From: an uncultured Acidobacteriota bacterium
GTDB taxonomy: Bacteria; Acidobacteriota; UBA6911; CAINFC01
NCBI GenBank assembly: GCA_903847975.1
Contig: CAINFC010000205.1
Location: forward strand, 1 to 45,016
Direction of reading: 5' to 3'
DNA length: 45,016 nucleotides
The position numbers and the translations under genes were made by a program. Positions 13,457-40,012 of the stretch are shown here, piece after piece; position 1 is the stretch's first letter; each line of letters begins with the position of its first letter. The notes beneath the pieces were generated by a model. The model made no database searches and had not been told where the DNA came from. It worked only from the letters and a program-made list of their open reading frames with translations.

Positions 13457-13498
13457 GCAGGGAACGGAGATGCCGGACCGGTCCGCGATAGGCCGGTA

Positions 13499-13756
13499 AA
13501 AAGTCCCGCACCTGTGGATTTCCGTTGGGGAAAGCCCTGCAAGGGCTTCGTAACACAGCCCGGGGTTGGCGCGCTTCGCGCCTACCCCGGGTAGGATTGT
13601 TCGGAGGAGACAACCCTGAAAGGGTTGCGCAAAATCCAGCCATGGCAGGTGTTTGCGCAGCCCTTTCAGGGCTGCTTTTCAAAAAAATCCGCTTGCCCGG
13701 GGTAGCACCTATGCGGCGCACCCCCGGGCTGTGATCCGGAACCCCTTTGGGGTTCC
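13499..13756 (+). repeat. Hairpin-array repeat, copy 3
   Basis: This copy has the same six-hairpin order as the one at 8101-8346: AAGCCCT/AGGGCTT, CCCGGGG/CCCCGGG with GCGCGCTTCGCGC tip, CAACCCTGAAAGGGTTG, CAGCCCTTTCAGGGCTG, CCCGGGG/CCCCCGGG, and GGAACCCC/GGGGTTCC. It lies between convergent genes (fibronectin-type gene and glmM). The opening aaaaagtccc is shared with copy 4. Confidence 0.88.
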
Positions 13757-13830
13757 AGCTGCTTTTTACACCTTCATCGTTCCTGATGGCGCACGCAAAA
13801 AGTACCGCTGCCCTTCCGAAATGCCCTGAC

Positions 13831-13903: not shown

Positions 13904-15250
13904 TCAGCCCAGGCAGCTTTGCACCACGCCGGCCAGGGCGGAGCAGACGCTTTCGGTTTCCCCGGCAGTGGGCCCTTCCACCATCACGCGGCACATCTGC
14001 TGCGTGCCGGAATAGCGCACCAGGATGCGGCCCCTTTCCCCCATCCGCTCTTCCGCCTGGCGGATGGCGGCGGCGAGAGCCGGCACCTCCTCGAGAGGCG
14101 GCTTGCTTTTCACCGGAACATTGATCAGCTTCTGCGGAAAGACGCTCATCACTCCCAGCTCGGAGAGCGGCCGGCCCTGTTCGCAGACCACCCGCAGCAG
14201 CTGCAGGGCGGCTACGATCCCGTCCCCGGTGGAGTGATGATCCAGAAAAATCAGGTGGCCGGATTCCTCTCCGCCCAACACCGCCGCGCGCGCGCGCATC
14301 TCTTCCAGCACGCAGCGGTCGCCGACGTTGGTCTCCAGGTGAAGGATTCCCAGCTCTTTCAGGGCCACCTTGAGCCCCAGGTTGCTCATTACCGTGCTGA
14401 CCACCCGGTCGTTCTTCAGCCGGCCCTGCCGCTTCATGGCAGAGGCGCAGAGGGCCAATATCTGGTCGCCGGTCCACATGCCGCCCTTATCGTCGACGGC
14501 GATCACCCGGTCGCCGTCCCCGTCGAAGGCAAAGCCCGCGTCGGCCCGGTTGCGGATCACCGCCTCGGTCAAGGCTTCGACGTGCTGCGAGCCGCATTTT
14601 TGATTGATGTTCTTGCCGTCCGGCTCGTGAAAAAGGGCTACCACCTCCGCTCCCAGCTCGAAGAACACCGAGGGGGCCACGCGGTAGGTGGCGCCGTTGG
14701 CGCAGTCCAGCACCACTTTGCGCCCCTCCAGGGTCAGCTCTTCCGGAAAGGTGTTCTTCAGAAAAACGATGTAGCGTCCCCGGGCGTCCTCGATCCGGTA
14801 GGCCTTGCCGATTTCCCGGGAGGAAACGGCCAGCTTCTCCAGCTCCCCGGAAAAAACCAGCTCCTCGATCTCCAGCTCCCGCTCGTCCGGGAGCTTGTAG
14901 CCCGTCTTGGAAAAGAGCTTGATGCCGTTGTCCTCATAGGGGTTGTGCGAGGCGGAAATGACGATTCCGGCATCGGCGCGCATGTTGGCCGTGATGAAGG
15001 CCACCCCGGGCGTGGGCATGACCCCGATCAGCAGGGCTTCCGCGCCCATGGCGCAGACGCCGGAAACCAGGGCGTTCTCGATCATGTAGCCGGAAAGGCG
15101 GGTGTCCTTGCCGATGACGATCCGCGGTACGTGTCCCGGGCGGCGGCACAGGTGGGCAATGGACATCCCGACTTTCAACGCCATTTCGGCGGTGATGGGG
15201 AAGGAGTTGGCGACTCCGCGAATTCCGTCCGTTCCGAACAATCGGCTCAT
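13904..15250 (-). CDS. glmM: Phosphoglucosamine mutase
   Basis: GlmM interconverts glucosamine-6-phosphate and glucosamine-1-phosphate in the cytoplasm for UDP-GlcNAc synthesis. The 448-residue protein has the family N-terminus MSRLFGTDGIRGVAN, the phosphoserine loop VISASHNPYEDNGIK, the metal loop DGDGDR and the C-terminal phosphate-binding loop. That last loop reads RYSGTQQMCRVMVEG instead of the usual RxSGTEP, which is a divergence to note but not a clear inactivation. The ATG lies one base after the stop of the glmS-like gene (TGAAATG), so the two are translationally coupled and act in consecutive steps. Confidence 0.96.
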   Translation of the reverse strand: MSRLFGTDGIRGVANSFPITAEMALKVGMSIAHLCRRPGHVPRIVIGKDTRLSGYMIENALVSGVCAMGAEALLIGVMPTPGVAFITANMRADAGIVISASHNPYEDNGIKLFSKTGYKLPDERELEIEELVFSGELEKLAVSSREIGKAYRIEDARGRYIVFLKNTFPEELTLEGRKVVLDCANGATYRVAPSVFFELGAEVVALFHEPDGKNINQKCGSQHVEALTEAVIRNRADAGFAFDGDGDRVIAVDDKGGMWTGDQILALCASAMKRQGRLKNDRVVSTVMSNLGLKVALKELGILHLETNVGDRCVLEEMRARAAVLGGEESGHLIFLDHHSTGDGIVAALQLLRVVCEQGRPLSELGVMSVFPQKLINVPVKSKPPLEEVPALAAAIRQAEERMGERGRILVRYSGTQQMCRVMVEGPTAGETESVCSALAGVVQSCLG

Positions 15251-15251
15251 T

Positions 15252-18200
15252 TCAGGTCCTTTCCGGTTGAGGGCTGATTCTTTCCACCAGGATTTCCACC
15301 GCCTCTCCCAGCAGGGTTTTGACGGACAGGCCGGCCAGAAATTCGTCGTTCCAGGCCCGGTTTTTCTCGTTCATCAGGTTGCGGATGTCCCAGTATTTTT
15401 CGTCCAGCAGCTCTCTCTTCTGCAGGAAGGAGAGCGCTTCATTGAAAGCGACGTGCAGCAGCAGGAGATGGTCCAGAAGCCGGGGAGGGCGGCGCAGAGG
15501 AAGGATCAGGATGGAGGCGTCGTCGGACTTACCGCTGCCGGCGTAGATTTCCCCGGTCCGGGCGATGGTCCGCTTGGTTCCCAGCAGGGGAGCCCGGCCC
15601 GCCACCCTCGACGGCATGTTTTCCGAAATCCCCCCCCGCCGGACGATCGAGATGGTGGTGTCCTCGGCCGGCTTTCCCTCCGGGTCCAGCCCCTCCAGCC
15701 GGTACAGGGTGTATCCCAGGATCGATTGCACGGCCGGCTGCAGCCGTTTGAGATGCAGGATGTCCCGGGCGGCCAGGTTCTCCTGGGAGAAGCCGCATCC
15801 CGCCAGGGCATCGAAAAGCACGCCGCGCAGTTTTTCCGCCTTGCGGCTGGTGCCGACGGTGACGGTTTTGGCCTGGTGGCGGATGGCATCGATCGGCCGG
15901 CTGAACTCATCCATGGCCCTTCCCAGAACCATGTCCATCGTCTCCAGGGGAGAGGCGGGAAAGCTGCCGCCCCGGAAATCTTCGGCAAAATCCTCGACCG
16001 GCAGCTTTCCCTGCAGGTATTTGAGCAGCAGGGTCAGCTCGGCCGCGGTTTCCACATGCATGGCGGTCAGGCAGCCTTCCGAGCGCCAGGAGTGAAATTC
16101 CGCGGAAAAAGGCCCCACCAGGCGCTTCAACTCGGCGCTGCCGATGCTTTCGTAAAAAGTAAGCCCGCGCAGCCGGTGGGCGGAAACCATTTCGCCCAGG
16201 CGGGTGCGGAACTCCTTGAACCGCCCGGACTGTTCGTCCAGGCTGCAGGCGGCGAAGTAGCCCCACAGGTGGCCCGCCAGGGCGTTCATCAGGATGGACA
16301 CCGGAAAAGGGGCTCGCGGCACGCGGATCACATGATCGGCGACGGCGTCGAAACGGCTTTCGCCTTCATCGGCCACCACCACGGCCCGGGCGGAATGGGC
16401 CTTGAAAATGGCGGTATCCTTGACGATGTCTTCCTTTACCACGTCCGGGCTTCCGGCCGCCAGCACCAGGACCAGCGGCTCCGAGGAGAGATCGATGTGC
16501 TTTTTGTCTTCGATGATGTCGGAGGATATGGTCTTGTAGCAGAGCTCCGAAAGCTTGATGCGGATTTCGTCGGCGGCCACTTTGTTGGCGCCGCTGCCGA
16601 CCACCGCCCAGTAGCGCTTCCGGCGGACGACCTCCCAGGCTGCCTGCCGGATATCCTCCCGCTGTCCGATCACCCGGCCCATCCATGCGGGGGTCTTCTC
16701 CAGATGGCGAAGCGCTTCGACCAGCCGATCGTCCGGACAGGTTCCCAGGAGCTGGGCGAGATAGAGGGCCAGAACCTGCCCGGCGACGATCTGGGAATAG
16801 AAGGCCTTGCTGGAAGCGACCGACATTTCGATGTCCCGTCCGTCGCTGGTGTACAGCACGCCGTGGGCCTTGGTGGTGATGTCCGACTGCCGGCGGTTGA
16901 CGATGGCGATAACTCCGGCCCCGCTCTCTCGCGCCAGGGCCACGGCCCGGTTGGTGTCGGTGGTGGTCCCGGACTGGGTGACGGCCAGGACCAGCGACCG
17001 GCTCAGCTCATCCCGGCCGGCAAACCCGCTCAGGTCAGACGCTTTCTGGGCCTGGATGCGCAGTCGGGCTCCCTGGAGATAATGGCTCAGGGCTTCGGCC
17101 ACCGCGGCTCCGGCCACGGCGGCCGTCCCCTGCCCGATGACGAATATATTCTCCGTTCTTCCTTCCTTCAGGGCACGGGCGATCGATTCGGGAAAAACGT
17201 CCTCCCCGAAGTTGAAAACCACCCGGCGGTCCGAAATGCGGTACTTTCCGCGCAGGGTTTTGCGGATCGAATCGGGCGCGTCGAGGATCTCCTTGAGCAG
17301 GTAGTGGCGGAATCCCCGGCGGTCGATGTCCCGGGTGGTGATTTCCGCTTTTTGAATGGCCGTCGGGCCGAGCTCCAGGGGGAATCCGTCGTAATGGCAG
17401 GCTTCGATGTCCTGCAGGCCGCCGCCCCGGCCGGAGTGCAGCCGGAAGATCTGCCCCCGGCTTTCCGCCGGGCCGTCGGGACGCGGACTTTCCCCGTTCA
17501 TTTTCAGAAAACAGGGCGTTTCCTCGATCAGCCCGTAGACTTCCGAGGCAAAGGAATACTGGTTTTCCGCCAGCCCGACGAAAAGAGCCTGGCCGCTGCC
17601 GCGCAGGGCCAGAAAGGTCTGGCCGGGCTCCAGGCTACTCTCCATCGCGATGGCATGGGAGCCTTCGAAATCGTTGAGCGCCAGCCGGAAGGCGGCGGCG
17701 AGGTCCTGCCCCTCGAGAAGGTACTTTTCGATCTGCAGCGGAATCACCTTGGTGTCGGTGGTGACGCGCTGGTCGACCAGCCGGCCGGCCGCTTCGGCCT
17801 CCGACTTCAAAGCCTGGTAATTGTCGATGTCGCCGTTCAGCGCGGCATGAATGAACCAGCGTCCCGTGCCGTAGCGGGGGTAGTGACGCACCGGCCAGGA
17901 GGCGGACCCTTCCGCCGGCAGGGTGAAGTGGTTGACCGGATGGCAGTTGGAGATGGTGATGGCTCCCACCGATGCCCAGCGGGTGTGCGCCAGGTAGCGG
18001 TCGCGGTCCCCGGCGCGGGAGACAAATTCCCTGAAAAGATCATCCCTGCGGATCCGGTCGCGAAGAGCGCGGCAGTTCTTCCCCAGTTCCCCGGTGATGG
18101 AGGCGGTCTTGTAGGTGAAAGTCACTCCGCCGGGGAACAGGCTGATGGAGTCGTCCGCCAGGTCCCCTTCCCGGGTCCGCCGGCGGAACTCTTCGATCTG

Positions 18201-18905
18201 CCCGGGGTCCGATACCGCACGAAGGATTTCTTCTTCTTCGCGGGCGGGGAACTCCAGGGTGACCTGGATGCCCGTGGAGTCGCGGCCTCGCACTTCCAGG
18301 CGGTCCAGGGAGTTGAGCAGCTGGTTCAGCCGGAGGTACTTCCGGAAAACGGCCGGGGAATCGGCGCAGGGACCTCCGGCCAGATGAAGGATCTTTTCCT
18401 GGTTCTTCAGAAGATCCTCCCGCAGGCCCCAGGCGATATCCTTGATCCGGATCAGGCACTGGGAGCTTCTCTCCAGCTCCTGCGTGGAGCAACCGGATGC
18501 GTCCTTTTCCAGGGCTGCCTCTTCGGTGCGGACGAAGTCCTCCATCGAGTCGGCCAGGTTTCTCCATCGGTCCAGGCCGCCGTTCCTGTGCCACCGGAAC
18601 TGCTCGTCGGCGTCCTGCTTGATTTGGTAAAGGATTTTTTCCATTTCCCCGATTACCAGGGCTGGAGGGCGGCCGTTTCTATCGGCGTCCTGCCGTTCCG
18701 CGCCGCGTAGCTCCATGAAATGACCCGAAAGCGACGAAAAGCGGTCCGGCGGCTCCTGCTCTTCCCGCTTCAGGGCCAGTATGCCCGCCAGCCCGCAGCA
18801 GAGGCGGGACGGGCGCAGAGGAAACAGAATGAGGGCCGGTCCGGCGACACGCCGCGGGTCGCGGCCGACAGTGATTTTCCAGCTTCTCCAAGTCGGATGG
18901 AACAT
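15252..18905 (-). CDS. Giant GlmS-like glutamine:fructose-6-phosphate aminotransferase
   Basis: At 1217 residues it is about twice the length of ordinary GlmS (near 610). Core parts are present: class II amidotransferase loop CCGLAGILA (C37), RLEVRGRDSTG (203-212), AHTRW (306-310), LNGDIDNY (N357-G358), TTDT (D384), first SIS domain with VTQSGTTTDT (642-651) and SVASSKAF (695-702), second SIS domain with KLSELCYK (784-791), and QAKTVTV (1011-1017) matching the GlmS C-terminal LAKSVTVE with its substrate lysine. Extra parts are a 36-residue stretch before the Cys, a helical insert (about 48-195), an insert after SIS2 (about 890-1003) and a 200-residue tail. ATG 18905 has AAGGGG 7 nt upstream. 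No start codon lies beside the Cys. Coupling to glmM supports a UDP-GlcNAc role. Confidence 0.85.
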   Translation of the reverse strand: MFHPTWRSWKITVGRDPRRVAGPALILFPLRPSRLCCGLAGILALKREEQEPPDRFSSLSGHFMELRGAERQDADRNGRPPALVIGEMEKILYQIKQDADEQFRWHRNGGLDRWRNLADSMEDFVRTEEAALEKDASGCSTQELERSSQCLIRIKDIAWGLREDLLKNQEKILHLAGGPCADSPAVFRKYLRLNQLLNSLDRLEVRGRDSTGIQVTLEFPAREEEEILRAVSDPGQIEEFRRRTREGDLADDSISLFPGGVTFTYKTASITGELGKNCRALRDRIRRDDLFREFVSRAGDRDRYLAHTRWASVGAITISNCHPVNHFTLPAEGSASWPVRHYPRYGTGRWFIHAALNGDIDNYQALKSEAEAAGRLVDQRVTTDTKVIPLQIEKYLLEGQDLAAAFRLALNDFEGSHAIAMESSLEPGQTFLALRGSGQALFVGLAENQYSFASEVYGLIEETPCFLKMNGESPRPDGPAESRGQIFRLHSGRGGGLQDIEACHYDGFPLELGPTAIQKAEITTRDIDRRGFRHYLLKEILDAPDSIRKTLRGKYRISDRRVVFNFGEDVFPESIARALKEGRTENIFVIGQGTAAVAGAAVAEALSHYLQGARLRIQAQKASDLSGFAGRDELSRSLVLAVTQSGTTTDTNRAVALARESGAGVIAIVNRRQSDITTKAHGVLYTSDGRDIEMSVASSKAFYSQIVAGQVLALYLAQLLGTCPDDRLVEALRHLEKTPAWMGRVIGQREDIRQAAWEVVRRKRYWAVVGSGANKVAADEIRIKLSELCYKTISSDIIEDKKHIDLSSEPLVLVLAAGSPDVVKEDIVKDTAIFKAHSARAVVVADEGESRFDAVADHVIRVPRAPFPVSILMNALAGHLWGYFAACSLDEQSGRFKEFRTRLGEMVSAHRLRGLTFYESIGSAELKRLVGPFSAEFHSWRSEGCLTAMHVETAAELTLLLKYLQGKLPVEDFAEDFRGGSFPASPLETMDMVLGRAMDEFSRPIDAIRHQAKTVTVGTSRKAEKLRGVLFDALAGCGFSQENLAARDILHLKRLQPAVQSILGYTLYRLEGLDPEGKPAEDTTISIVRRGGISENMPSRVAGRAPLLGTKRTIARTGEIYAGSGKSDDASILILPLRRPPRLLDHLLLLHVAFNEALSFLQKRELLDEKYWDIRNLMNEKNRAWNDEFLAGLSVKTLLGEAVEILVERISPQPERT

Positions 18906-18991: not shown

Positions 18992-20161
18992 ATGTCGGTA
19001 ACATTGGGGTTGGAACGGCTTTTTCAGGACTTTCCCGGCAGCTGCAGCGGCGCCCGGGTCGGAATCATCTGCAACCATGCCTCGGTGGACCGGCAGTACC
19101 GGCATGCCGTCGACCTGTTTGCGGACTGCTCCCGGTTCCGCCTGACCACCGTATTCGGCCCGCAGCACGGGGCTCGCGGAGACAAGCAGGACAACATGAT
19201 CGAATCGGATCACTACCGCGATCCGCAGCGGGATGTCCCCGTCTACAGCCTTTACGGCGAGCACCGCAAGCCGACTCCGGAGATGCTCGATTCGCTGGAT
19301 ATTCTCTTTTGCGACCTGACGGATGTCGGCGCCCGGATCTACACGTTTATCTATACGATGGCGCTGGCCATGGAAGCCTGCGCGGAGCGCGGCAAGCGCT
19401 TCGTGGTTCTCGACCGCCCCAATCCGATCGGCGGAACCGAGGTGGAGGGCAATGTCCTGGATCCCGCATTCCGCTCCTTCGTCGGTCTTTTTCCCATTCC
19501 CATGAGGCACGGAATGACGATCGGAGAGCTGGCCTGTTTATTCAACCGGGAATTCGGGATCGGAGCCGAGCTGGAGGTGGTGAGGGCCGCAGGCTGGCAG
19601 CGCGATGCCTGGCTTTCCGAAACCGGCGTATCCTGGGTGATGCCGTCGCCAAACATGCCGACCCTCCAAACGGCGGCCGTTTATCCGGGGGCGGTGCTGG
19701 TCGAAGGGACTCACCTGTCGGAAGGGCGCGGAACCACCCAGCCCTTCGAGCTGATCGGGGCGCCCTATATCGACCCCTACCTGCTTTCCCGGGAGCTGAA
19801 CGGACACCGGTTGCCGGGAGTTCATTTCCGCCCCTGTTTTTTTCGGCCGACGTTCCACAAGTGGGCCGAAGAGCTCTGCGGCGGCGTGCAGATCCACGTA
19901 ACCGACCGCGCGTCCTTCCGGCCGTTCCTGGCCGGGCTGGCTGTACTGAGGGAAGTCCTGCGCCTCTACCCGGAGCGGTTCGCCTGGCGAAAGCCGCCCT
20001 ACGAGTACGAGTATGAGAAGATGCCGATCGACATCCTTCTGGGAACCGATTCGCTGAGGCGCAGCCTGGAGGCGGGAGAGGAACTCCGGGCGATGGAGGA
20101 AAGCTGGCAGGCGGATCTGGGCCGATTCCTGGAAAAGCGCCGCCGCTACCTGCTGTACTAA
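18992..20161 (+). CDS. NamZ/DUF1343 exo-beta-N-acetylmuramidase homologue
   Basis: The 389-residue protein matches the DUF1343 family, whose characterised Bacillus member NamZ releases terminal MurNAc from peptidoglycan fragments. Visible family segments are RVGIICNHASVD, TTVFGPQHGARGD, DILFCDLTDVGARIYTFIYTM, VLDRPNPIGG, PNMPTLQTAAVYPGAVLVEGTHLSEGRGTTQPFELIGAP and FRPTFHKW. No signal peptide is seen, so it appears cytoplasmic, unlike the secreted Bacillus enzyme. That suits muropeptide recycling next to glmS and glmM. GGAGGG lies 3-4 nt from the ATG, a short spacing. The stop overlaps the convergent TPM gene stop by 3 nt. Confidence 0.88.
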   Translation: MSVTLGLERLFQDFPGSCSGARVGIICNHASVDRQYRHAVDLFADCSRFRLTTVFGPQHGARGDKQDNMIESDHYRDPQRDVPVYSLYGEHRKPTPEMLDSLDILFCDLTDVGARIYTFIYTMALAMEACAERGKRFVVLDRPNPIGGTEVEGNVLDPAFRSFVGLFPIPMRHGMTIGELACLFNREFGIGAELEVVRAAGWQRDAWLSETGVSWVMPSPNMPTLQTAAVYPGAVLVEGTHLSEGRGTTQPFELIGAPYIDPYLLSRELNGHRLPGVHFRPCFFRPTFHKWAEELCGGVQIHVTDRASFRPFLAGLAVLREVLRLYPERFAWRKPPYEYEYEKMPIDILLGTDSLRRSLEAGEELRAMEESWQADLGRFLEKRRRYLLY

Positions 20162-36532: not shown

Positions 36533-39500
36533 ATGCCATATAGACAACGAGTTGTCTGGCTTCTGCTTTTCTGTATTTTGGAGGTCGGTGCCCAGGACCG
36601 TATGTCCCCGACTATTCCCGGCCCATGGGTAAACCGGCTGGCGGGACAATTGATATATTTCTTCGAAGAAGGGGATACCAGCCCAAGAGGGAACTGGAAA
36701 ACCTACCTGGCAATTACCAACAATTCGCTCGACACCTTCGTGGCCGTGCACTACCAGATTTATTTCCAGCAATCCGGAGTGGGCCTTACGGAGTGGCTCG
36801 ACTATGTGGACATTCTCACCCCGTGTCAGACCTTCCAGATCGATCCGGCGGAAATCCGGCTTACCTCTCTGGCTTATTCGCCAAACGCGCTTCGGGGTTC
36901 GGCGACCAATGGCCGCTTTGTCATGACGGCTACTCCCATCGATCCGCAGAACGAGCCGTCAGACATGCGCGCGATTGCCTTTAATTACCTCAGCGGGCAG
37001 ATCAACACCACCCACCTGGGAATCGGTTCCACCTTCACCATGAATGCCATCGGGCGCATGGCGGTTGATGCGTTTGGGTCCCCCGTCGCTCATACCAGCA
37101 CCGCATATGACTACGGCCGCGACCAGATGCCTGCCAACGTGCTATATGCCACCGGCAACCTCATCGATGGCACCACCCGGCTGTTTCAAAAGATAAGGCC
37201 GGACACGCTGATCCTGGCGTCTTTTCTGCCCACTTCCGCTGCCTCCGGAAAGGTCACCCAGGGAATGCCCTTCGGCAACCGGCTTTCTTTCCTGGCATTT
37301 AAAGACAATTACAATTTGTATCGGTTGGAGGAAGATGCCGCCACCGTCACGCCGAATGCCTACAATGGAAGGATCCCCTCCTCCCTTTTGACCGGGGCGC
37401 CGTTACGCGTATCGGGATTAACCGAATTTACAGTCGCTCCGCCGACGCCGGTAACCGGAAACTTTCCCAACCTCTTCGGCACCGCCGATACCCGCTCCCT
37501 GGAGCTGAGCGGCGGGTGGCTGCTCAACCAGGTGGTTCCCGGCAGTTCCGACGTCAACCTGGTCGCCTGGTTTTCACAAAACGGACCCTCCGGCAATGGG
37601 GGAGATTACCTGATCGGCGTGGGGACCCGGATAGAAACTTCCGGCGCCTTATACGCGGTAGATCCTTTCCTGGGAAACATGAGACGGGTGCCTGCCGGCA
37701 TGTTTACCCAGGGTACGCCCCAGGCGGAGGTCGGGCGGGCTTCCCCGGAGGGGCCGCAGTTTCAACACACCCTCACCAGAGACCTGGCGGTGATGGAAAC
37801 GGAGGTAACCCGCCAGATGTGGACCAATTTGAAGGCCGTACAACCGAATTTGCCGACGGATCCGACCAATACGGCCGCCGGAGCGGGTGCCGATTGCCCG
37901 GTGCAGAACCTCACCTGGTACCAGGCGGTTCTGTTCGCCAACCTGTTATCCAGGCAGATGGGGCTGAACGCCGCTTATTACAAGGATTCGCAGTGGAGCC
38001 AGCCGGTCGATATCGGAAACTATGCCGCAGAACCGATTTACTTCAATTACAATGCCGACGGTTACCGCCTGCCGTCGGAAGGGGAGTGGGAGTATTTCGC
38101 CAGGGCCGGAAAGACCGGGCCCTTTTCCGTGGAGGAACCGGCTTATGGTGCGGGCACCTACCAGTCCTGTACACCGGCCGTATTGACCGCCCTGGAAAAA
38201 GTCGCCTGGTTTTGCGCCAACTCGACTTCGGCATCCAGTGCCGTTGGCGCCAAGTCCGCGAATCCCTGGGGGCTGAAGGATATTCACGGAAACGTGGGAG
38301 AGTGGTGCTGGGACTGGTCGGGCGCCTATCCCGCTGTCGCCCAGACCAATTACCTGGGGCCGGCTGCGGGGACCAGCCGGGTCTTTCGGGACTCGGGATG
38401 GAACAGCCAGCCGGTGGATATCCGCTCCGGCAGTCGCGGCTCGGCGGGCCCGTCGAGTACCGGCAGCACCCGGGGCTTCCGCCTGGTAAGATCGATTGCG
38501 GTTTCAACGCCGGGACAGTCTGCGGTTCCCAAATCGAAGGACGTCTGGCCGCGGCAGGGACTCGACAATGTGACGAATGAAGTGACCCTGACCGGCAGCG
38601 GGTTTGTGGATGGAGCCAATGCCAGTTTGAGGAACGCAGCGGTCAGCGGTTCTTCGAAAGGGCCTGTCCGCTGGAGTTCCAAGGCCAACCCGGCCTATGC
38701 TCTGCCCCAGTCCGCTCAGTTGAGCGTCACCCTGCAGACCACCTTTGTGAGCCCGCGCGAATTGCGGGTCGTCGTCCCGAACGGATTGATTCCCGGTAAA
38801 TACGAAATCGACGTGACCAATCCGGATAACAGCCAAACCTCCGCGGCCGCCTCCTACACCGTTCTGGACAGCCAATCGCCTACCTTGAACGATCTTTACG
38901 GAAACAGCTTTGGGCTCTGGACCTCGCCGATGAATCCCGCGACCGGAACGGCGGTCTCCCTGGGCCTTATTGTCCATCGTACCGGAGGGACCAGCACACT
39001 GAGTAACATCGAGGTGAGCTTCCGGCTGAGCAGCTGCGCGAGCGGGGATTTGCTGGGCACCGGCCTGGTAAGCGTGCTTGGTCCCAACGGCACCGCCAGT
39101 ACCACCGGGATCACCTGGACTCCCAATGCCACCGGAAACACGACGATCTGTGCCGTGATTGATCCCCGGGGTGTCATCAGCGAGAGCTCCAAGGACAACA
39201 ACCAGATCTCCAGTTCCTTCAACGTGCTTCCGGTCATGCCGGACCGGGTGGCCCCGCATGTGGATAGCTTTGCCGTTCAGAAGGGGGCCCTGTCGACGGC
39301 CATCCTGGATGTCATCCTGGACACCTCGGCAAGCGATCCGGCGCCGAGCTCCGGTATCGCGGCGCTCTATTTTCAGGAATTCGAATTTCATCCGGGGGCC
39401 CGATACTGGATTCCGATTCACCAGTCTGAAAAATGGGAGCCCTATTCCGCGTCTTCTGCGGACTATTCCTGGACACTGGTTCCCTTTGTGGGGCTGCACC

Positions 39501-40012
39501 ACCTTCAAGTCTGGGCGCTTGATTATGCCGGCAACATTTCTCTGTTCCCTTACAAGGCAGCGATCAATTATATTCCGGCCAGCGATCTCATCGAGCGCCA
39601 GCAGGTACGCATTTACCGGCCGCAGAAATTAAAAGCAGGCCAGACGCTTACAGCCATCCTGACACCCGTCTGGGGGGATCCGGATCTCTATATCTGGCCT
39701 CCGGGCAGCACGGCTTCGATCAGCAACACCCGCCCGCCGTGGGTCAGCAACCTGGCCAGCGGAACGGACGAAATCAGCATTGCCGTTCCGATCGAAGGGG
39801 CCTATCAGGTGGAAGTGCACGGCAATACCCGCGCCCAGTATCGGCTGATAATCCACGTCGGCAATGAGGCGCCCGGCTCCACCGGCAACTCCGGGGAAGG
39901 GAAGGTCAAGGCCGGTGCGCCGCTGGTTTCTCCCGACAATGAGCCGGATAACCAGGTCAATGTGCCGACGGTGGAGCGCTGGGCTCTTCGGCTGCCGTTG
40001 ATCCTGCGGTGA
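36533..40012 (+). CDS. Large secreted protein with FGE-like, TIG-like, CARDB-like and PPC-like domains
   Basis: The 1159-residue protein has a signal peptide (MPYRQRVVWLLLFCILEVGAQ) and a mosaic layout. Residues 1-385 match the preceding paralogue. About 390-655 is an FGE/SUMF1-type domain (RVPAGMFTQGTP, MWTNLKAV, YRLPSEGEWEYFARAG, GLKDIHGNVGEWCWDW, GFRLVR). About 665-780 resembles an IPT/TIG domain, about 790-910 a CARDB domain, and about 1020-1100 a PPC domain (KAGQTLTAILTPVWGDPDLYIWPPG). It closes with LRLPLILR. The stretch before GFRLVR (GWNSQPVDIRSGSRGSAG) lacks the cysteine pair of true formylglycine-generating enzymes, so it is unlikely to oxidise cysteine; a binding role or another SUMF1-fold activity is more likely. 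Confidence 0.85.
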   Translation: MPYRQRVVWLLLFCILEVGAQDRMSPTIPGPWVNRLAGQLIYFFEEGDTSPRGNWKTYLAITNNSLDTFVAVHYQIYFQQSGVGLTEWLDYVDILTPCQTFQIDPAEIRLTSLAYSPNALRGSATNGRFVMTATPIDPQNEPSDMRAIAFNYLSGQINTTHLGIGSTFTMNAIGRMAVDAFGSPVAHTSTAYDYGRDQMPANVLYATGNLIDGTTRLFQKIRPDTLILASFLPTSAASGKVTQGMPFGNRLSFLAFKDNYNLYRLEEDAATVTPNAYNGRIPSSLLTGAPLRVSGLTEFTVAPPTPVTGNFPNLFGTADTRSLELSGGWLLNQVVPGSSDVNLVAWFSQNGPSGNGGDYLIGVGTRIETSGALYAVDPFLGNMRRVPAGMFTQGTPQAEVGRASPEGPQFQHTLTRDLAVMETEVTRQMWTNLKAVQPNLPTDPTNTAAGAGADCPVQNLTWYQAVLFANLLSRQMGLNAAYYKDSQWSQPVDIGNYAAEPIYFNYNADGYRLPSEGEWEYFARAGKTGPFSVEEPAYGAGTYQSCTPAVLTALEKVAWFCANSTSASSAVGAKSANPWGLKDIHGNVGEWCWDWSGAYPAVAQTNYLGPAAGTSRVFRDSGWNSQPVDIRSGSRGSAGPSSTGSTRGFRLVRSIAVSTPGQSAVPKSKDVWPRQGLDNVTNEVTLTGSGFVDGANASLRNAAVSGSSKGPVRWSSKANPAYALPQSAQLSVTLQTTFVSPRELRVVVPNGLIPGKYEIDVTNPDNSQTSAAASYTVLDSQSPTLNDLYGNSFGLWTSPMNPATGTAVSLGLIVHRTGGTSTLSNIEVSFRLSSCASGDLLGTGLVSVLGPNGTASTTGITWTPNATGNTTICAVIDPRGVISESSKDNNQISSSFNVLPVMPDRVAPHVDSFAVQKGALSTAILDVILDTSASDPAPSSGIAALYFQEFEFHPGARYWIPIHQSEKWEPYSASSADYSWTLVPFVGLHHLQVWALDYAGNISLFPYKAAINYIPASDLIERQQVRIYRPQKLKAGQTLTAILTPVWGDPDLYIWPPGSTASISNTRPPWVSNLASGTDEISIAVPIEGAYQVEVHGNTRAQYRLIIHVGNEAPGSTGNSGEGKVKAGAPLVSPDNEPDNQVNVPTVERWALRLPLILR

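Follow-up and report, generated by a model that had tools for sequence, protein, structure and literature searches.

How can an enzyme that splits glutamine with an N-terminal cysteine function when that cysteine is preceded by 36 further residues? The question is raised by a giant GlmS-like protein encoded in 45,016 nucleotides of DNA from an uncultured Acidobacteriota bacterium (assembly GCA_903847975.1, contig CAINFC010000205.1, positions 1 to 45,016), and this whole stretch is referred to here as the window. Among class II amidotransferases, GlmS is the standard case in which removal of the initiator Met suffices, and class II catalysis uses the free alpha-amino group of Cys1. In the window protein the Cys is residue 37 and does not directly follow the initiator Met. 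Comparison with its relatives makes it likely that the giant protein is the glucosamine-6-phosphate synthase of its genome, made as a precursor from which the leader, residues 1–36, is removed to free Cys37. The conserved leader very probably has to be cut before the glutamine-splitting Cys can work. Three features are central to this reading:

15252–18905, minus strand: giant GlmS-like protein (glutaminase, double-SIS sugar isomerase and extra stretches), from the open reading frame, Pfam and structural matches to GFAT-1 and E. coli GlmS
18798–18905, minus strand: leader of 36 residues, probable propeptide, with conserved marks G14 (position −23) and P29 (position −8), from family comparison and the ratio of nonsynonymous to synonymous substitution rates (dN/dS)
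18795–18797, minus strand: Cys37, predicted N-terminal nucleophile once the leader is removed, with Cys in 108/108 distinct rows

The open reading frame encodes 1,217 residues, twice the normal size (608–609 residues in E. coli GlmS chains), and starts at an ATG preceded by a good ribosome site, AAAAGGGGATAAAGA-ATG, with an in-frame TAA two codons 5′ of it. The Cys pair occupies residues 36–37 (18800–18795) and is directly preceded by a CTC codon. An earlier note on this DNA had described the gene in these terms, from its coordinates, strand, length and start to the 36 residues before the Cys, and the description held throughout. It had offered two explanations for the buried cysteine, a cleaved propeptide or a sequence error at the true start.

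Conservation of the leader

Relatives were drawn from one contig scan, from which 80 of 108 were kept. By assembly title, 26 of these are Syntroph- or Smithella-, 26 Desulfo- (one being Candidatus Desulfatibia) and 23 only Deltaproteobacteria, the remaining titles being Proteobacteria (3), "bacterium" (1) and Riflebacteria (1). One intact full-length frame was present in 64 first-round relatives, with the Cys in all 64 and a leader of the same spacing in 63. In total 115 rows were typed, the window included: 97 carry a leader with P-x7-Cys, 17 start Met-Cys and one, L198, is truncated at a contig end and was left untyped, with no third pattern among them. Removal of six duplicates and L198 leaves 108 distinct rows, 92 with a leader and 16 with Met-Cys, and Cys37 aligns with the post-Met Cys of these 16 leaderless rows. 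An earlier set of 40 5′ ends held 12 Met-Cys starts, 26 leaders and two without the start region; several of the genomes behind it were later taken full length and are counted in the 115.

Among the 92 leader rows the proline at −8 is invariant (92/92), glycine stands at −23 in 85, Phe or Leu at −9 in 91 and Leu, Phe, Ile or Val at −2 in 90. The leader has a hydrophobic core and a fixed spacing to the Cys, and its conserved part reaches the Cys itself. Only C, S, N, F, Y, G, H, P, A and Q occupy position −1, with Met, Val, Leu, Ile or a charged residue in 0/92 rows, so that no possible start codon lies directly before the Cys.

In 18 close pairs, chosen by hand, dN/dS was 1.066 in an upstream control (compared ungapped, so that indels may inflate this value, a point against the contrast drawn here), 0.469 in the outer leader and 0.277 in the core leader; further on it was 0.11 for the 12 codons starting at the Cys and 0.44 at the start of the insert. 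The low dN/dS of its core against the upstream control marks the leader as translated and subject to purifying selection. Its conservation is the most surprising feature and suggests a function, structural or regulatory, over and above concealing the Cys.

Repeated loss of the leader

The earlier note had proposed a comparison of the N-termini of long homologues, and held that close homologues starting Met-Cys would speak for a start codon lost here through an assembly error. A minority do start Met-Cys; being nested in the leader type and without any remnant upstream, they indicate that the leader can be lost, not that a start codon was lost here. When the leader columns are left out of the tree of the 108 rows, the two states require three changes, two of which are forced by starred branches. 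A single clade for all Met-Cys rows was rejected in an approximately unbiased (AU) test (p 1.9e-25, 54 rows), and a clade holding them together without L034 was not (p 0.062); the tests thus establish two independent switches from leader to Met-Cys and only suggest a third. With rows of the distant family f52, described below, as outgroup, four changes are needed (119 rows, in a tree that carries a long-branch warning for L061). On these trees the Met-Cys forms arose inside the leader type at least twice.

The leader motif was recovered in 97/97 leaders and, over 300 nucleotides upstream in any forward frame, in 0/17 Met-Cys rows, which speaks against a frameshift-hidden leader within that distance of the latter. 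The ATG of the Met-Cys forms follows purine-rich sequence, for example AAAGGA or GGAGG. By the thresholds of our analysis, systematic differences between the two types are confined to two positions (V/I and L/M), and as the catalytic residues are common to both, the core evidently works with Cys first. A leader that is translated, and replaced by Met-Cys where it is lost, matches the prediction for a removable propeptide. At the level of sequence comparison, the cleaved propeptide of the earlier note is therefore strongly supported, by leader conservation, selection and the nested Met-Cys forms.

Catalytic residues and standing as GlmS

It can be seen from the alignment that, of 19 catalytic positions checked in the 108 rows, 18 are invariant and T643 is either S (55) or T (53). 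The glutaminase residues C37, R309, N357, G358 and D384 and the gate W310 are kept in every row, their E. coli counterparts being Cys1, Arg73, Asn98, Gly99, Asp123 and the gate Trp74. The isomerase residues K784, E787, H803, K1013, T594, Q644, S645 and T648 are likewise present in 108/108 rows, the E. coli counterparts being Lys485, Glu488, His504, Lys603 and the sugar-phosphate site. K1013 occupies the position of E. coli Lys603 and A595, invariant in 108/108 rows, that of Ser303. All the GlmS landmark motifs claimed in the earlier note, the C-terminal lysine segment included, were located (RGRDS 206–210, HTRWASVG 307–314, NGDIDNY 357–363, TDTK 383–386 and QAKTVTV 1011–1017), and Pfam places SIS (51.5 bits), GATase_6 (30.2) and GATase_7 (26.2) above gathering thresholds.

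No glmS above the TIGR01135 cut-off was found in the window's own genome, nor in any of 24 relatives' genomes examined out of the 80 (their completeness being unstated), and all 14 control genomes had one. The giant protein is the best glmS-model match of its own genome, below the cut-off, and its gene adjoins glmM. An ordinary GlmS elsewhere in this genome was rejected at that cut-off; the other matches, all weak, are a PurF-like protein on contig C138, on C132 a 232-residue frame with a Met-Cys protein, and on C35 a SIS frame of 382 residues. Among the relatives, the genome of L080 (G082) is an exception in having also a 358-residue frame that matches the C-terminal half at 213.4 bits. On these searches the giant protein looks like its genome's only enzyme for the first cell-wall amino sugar.

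Domain architecture and structure model

An AlphaFold model of residues 1–1200 has a mean predicted local distance difference test score (pLDDT) of 82 and matches GFAT-1 and GlmS over residues ~185–892. Beyond Cys37 the chain divides as follows:

18351–18767, minus strand: helical insert, residues ~47–185, between the Cys strand and RGRDS (helix prediction)
17331–18350, minus strand: rest of the class II glutaminase domain, residues ~186–525 (VIA-align match to 1xff)
16230–17327, minus strand: double-SIS sugar isomerase domain, residues ~527–892 (VIA-align, PF01380)
15876–16229, minus strand: extra, mostly helical stretch, residues ~893–1010, from the isomerase fold to the C-terminal lysine segment (model, structural matches)
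15855–15875, minus strand: QAKTVTV segment with K1013 (K in 108/108 rows)
15255–15854, minus strand: C-terminal tail of 200 residues after QAKTVTV, which folds confidently when modelled alone (mean pLDDT 89)

Residues 185–892 align with GFAT-1 at a VIA-align Z of ~38 (577–593 residues aligned, root-mean-square deviation (rmsd) 4.3–5.3), the isomerase part alone at Z 38.2 (rmsd 2.3–2.4), and the isomerase domains of human, Candida and E. coli GFAT/GlmS are matched at Z 35–38. Residues 188–523 match 1xff, the GlmS glutaminase domain, at Z 25.8 (rmsd 2.1, 231 aligned). The glutaminase plus double-SIS fold that defines a GlmS-type enzyme is accordingly present by the alignment to GFAT-1, and matches to the isomerase fold stop near residue 892.

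The insert that the earlier note had placed between the Cys loop and RGRDS was recovered as predicted helices over residues 55–176 (55–68, 81–97, 99–108, 111–138 and 141–176). Relative to the E. coli spacing, there are ~55 additional residues between RGRDS and HTRW and ~110 additional, mostly helical residues from the isomerase fold to QAKTVTV. Pfam returned no family above cut-off in the insert region (17900–18800) and none in the stretch before QAKTVTV (15863–16250). The 200-residue tail, also claimed earlier, is borne out by the reading frame. A Pfam search up to E 10 finds nothing in it, its best Foldseek E is 0.005, and its best VIA-align match is 7jsr, a large glutamate dehydrogenase, residues 173–361 (Z 10.0, rmsd 4.1, 157 aligned), the remaining matches (Z ≤7.1) being mostly GAF, PAS, LOV or related sensor domains. 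The model weakly suggests a PAS/GAF/ACT-like arrangement, for which no homology is claimed.

Alternative explanations

The alternative that survives best is that the leader is never removed and serves as a structural N-terminal element, in an enzyme that works with an internal Cys or takes free ammonia instead of glutamine. Strong conservation, fixed spacing and the invariant proline would suit such an element, as would two strands predicted in the leader with modest confidence (10–13 and 24–28, AlphaFold model), and passages in PMC3261824 have E. coli PurF without its Cys still using ammonia. An ammonia-only enzyme would, however, not require the Cys, the checked glutaminase residues or the channel Trp, yet these are invariant in 108/108 rows, and where the leader is missing a Met stands directly before the Cys in 16/16 distinct rows. 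The free alpha-amino group on which class II catalysis relies is a further objection, and we regard a retained leader as unlikely.

Several observations nevertheless weigh against a GlmS matured by cleavage. Compared with the PurF leaders examined, this leader shows both stronger conservation and greater hydrophobicity; it may be structural and could stay in place, and the evidence for its cleavage comes from sequence comparison. AlphaFold is unsure at the Cys (mean pLDDT 54 for residues 31–40 and 65 for 41–50) and the structural alignments to GFAT start only near residue 185, so that the model neither confirms nor contradicts the placement of Cys37; with low-to-moderate confidence at the leader and the Cys, it is also silent on the scissile bond. 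The protein scores 208.1 bits against a TIGR01135 cut-off of 418.05 and 231.9 against 381 for PRK00331, and linkage to glmM is not general, glmM having been found in 10/80 relatives' loci, many of which are short.

It is far less probable that the leader serves in targeting or membrane binding and is cut off by a host protease. Many relatives do have further upstream residues, amphipathic or hydrophobic by eye, and the hydrophobic core would fit such a role, but the conserved part reaches the Cys with fixed spacing and the pathway is cytoplasmic. A sequence or start-site error, with a true start at Met-Cys and an untranslated leader, is scarcely credible, its only support being the existence of Met-Cys relatives, and was ruled out by the conservation of the leader at the same spacing across many separate assemblies (63/64 first-round full-length relatives), the residues at −1 (no possible start codon in 92/92 leader rows) and the purifying selection seen in dN/dS.

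Proposed maturation and its implications

In the precursor reading that we favour, giant GlmS would be translated with a conserved propeptide (residues 1–36), whose removal, most likely autocatalytic by Cys37, would turn Cys37 into the N-terminal nucleophile. The mature glutaminase would then free ammonia, channelled to the double-SIS domain for conversion of fructose-6-phosphate to glucosamine-6-phosphate, and GlmM, the product of the neighbouring gene, would take the next step. What we infer here are the cleavage and its autocatalytic nature, the activity of the enzyme, and what the inserts and the tail do. A more tentative extension, possible but rather doubtful, is that the leader is a conserved folded activation module that keeps the zymogen's glutaminase off until the giant subunit is folded or assembled, ancestral to two main clades and lost repeatedly where such control was no longer needed.

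If this extension is true, the enzyme for the first committed step towards cell-wall amino sugars would be made as a zymogen. A large bacterial group with a giant leader-bearing GlmS, some of whose relatives are leaderless, would offer a natural experiment on why precursors are made. The NCBI curated glmS models fall short of their cut-offs on the probable GlmS of such genomes.

Genomic context and origin of the gene

The neighbouring gene of the pathway is:

13904–15250, minus strand: glmM (phosphoglucosamine mutase), next pathway step, separated from giant glmS by a 1-bp gap (TIGR01455, 588.8 bits)

On the other side and divergent from giant glmS lies a gene for a NamZ exo-beta-N-acetylmuramidase (18992–20161, plus strand), which puts cell-wall sugar turnover beside cell-wall sugar synthesis. 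Elsewhere the window encodes a 1,159-residue protein with sulfatase-modifying-factor-like and CARDB domains (36533–40012, plus strand).

The giant form is, by these searches, common in assemblies titled Syntrophales and Desulfobacterales. In the class of one Desulfobacterales genome (that of L052), a match is present in 275 of the 291 genomes sampled and absent from 16, with frames of at least 1,086 residues among the matches listed; in eight of the 275 the best E is weaker than 1e-120, and these could be fragments or ordinary GlmS. Of 60 genomes sampled from the window's own class and phylum, its own included, 52 had a match, and outside its own genome the frames at matches are ≤685 residues. 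In a phylum sample, 12/247 genomes match residues 1–400 at E 1e-12, namely the own genome and 11 of family f52 in the same phylum. The 11 f52 proteins (L213–L223) are distant, long and GlmS-like (frames of 1,151–1,398 residues), and all start Met-Cys. The window gene groups with L007 and L008 in trees and may derive from a donor near a Syntrophales-type clade.

The short frames in the 59 other genomes raised the possibility of a misbinned contig, which was rejected because a dispersed repeat in the window has ~40 copies on the genome's other contigs and only weak matches elsewhere. This repeat (~13487–13792, ~270–300 bp) is in part similar to its own reverse strand; the copies on other contigs of the genome are 80–91% identical, their number being a lower bound with 40 of 531 candidates scored, and the weak matches are in 7/59 other genomes. 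The window also holds an Acido-Lenti-1 RNA (RF01687, 44567–44622, minus strand, 39.8 bits), which the own genome matches 46 times, in several cases close to the start of a contig, and which occurs in 17/60 genomes of a phylum sample, own included. This RNA may travel with a repeated element.

Comparison with known systems

The class II glutaminase and double-SIS plan is that of GlmS/GFAT (TIGR01135; E. coli GlmS 1jxa and 2j6h; human GFAT-1 6r4e). Every checked active-site position is kept or conservatively replaced in the giant, except for S303, which is A595 (E. coli residues and giant residues respectively). Unlike GlmS/GFAT, the giant has a leader before its Cys, extra stretches, a 200-residue tail and half the TIGR01135 cut-off score. 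Two proteins of ~1,500 residues, L206 and L207, form a separate GlmS-like family with glutaminase and SIS matches in one long frame, as in the giant, but differ from it in sequence and in their Met-Cys start; they sit in two genomes that also carry a shorter giant GlmS.

In the glutamate synthase large subunit, GltB, a longer propeptide precedes the class II Cys. The own-genome PurF-like protein (L003) also has a leader, ~31 residues from the first Met to the Cys of CGIFGIF. PurF leaders were readable in 15 of 20 genomes tried, the other five not being found and possibly of another kind, and they vary in length and sequence, position −2 being occupied by E (14) or D (1). In contrast, the GlmS leader is long and hydrophobic, with an invariant Pro at −8 and fixed spacing. 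A title search of the open-access literature found no report of a GlmS propeptide, a precedent that is reported for related class II enzymes. Passages in the sources consulted describe the N-terminal Cys used by class II amidotransferases (PMC7948480), its autocatalytic exposure in class II amidotransferases generally, in a review of human N-terminal nucleophile (Ntn) hydrolases (PMC9140057), and a PurF family in which the Cys is exposed by Met loss in some members and by cleavage of residues in others (PMC3261824). The same pair of states is seen inside the giant GlmS-like family.

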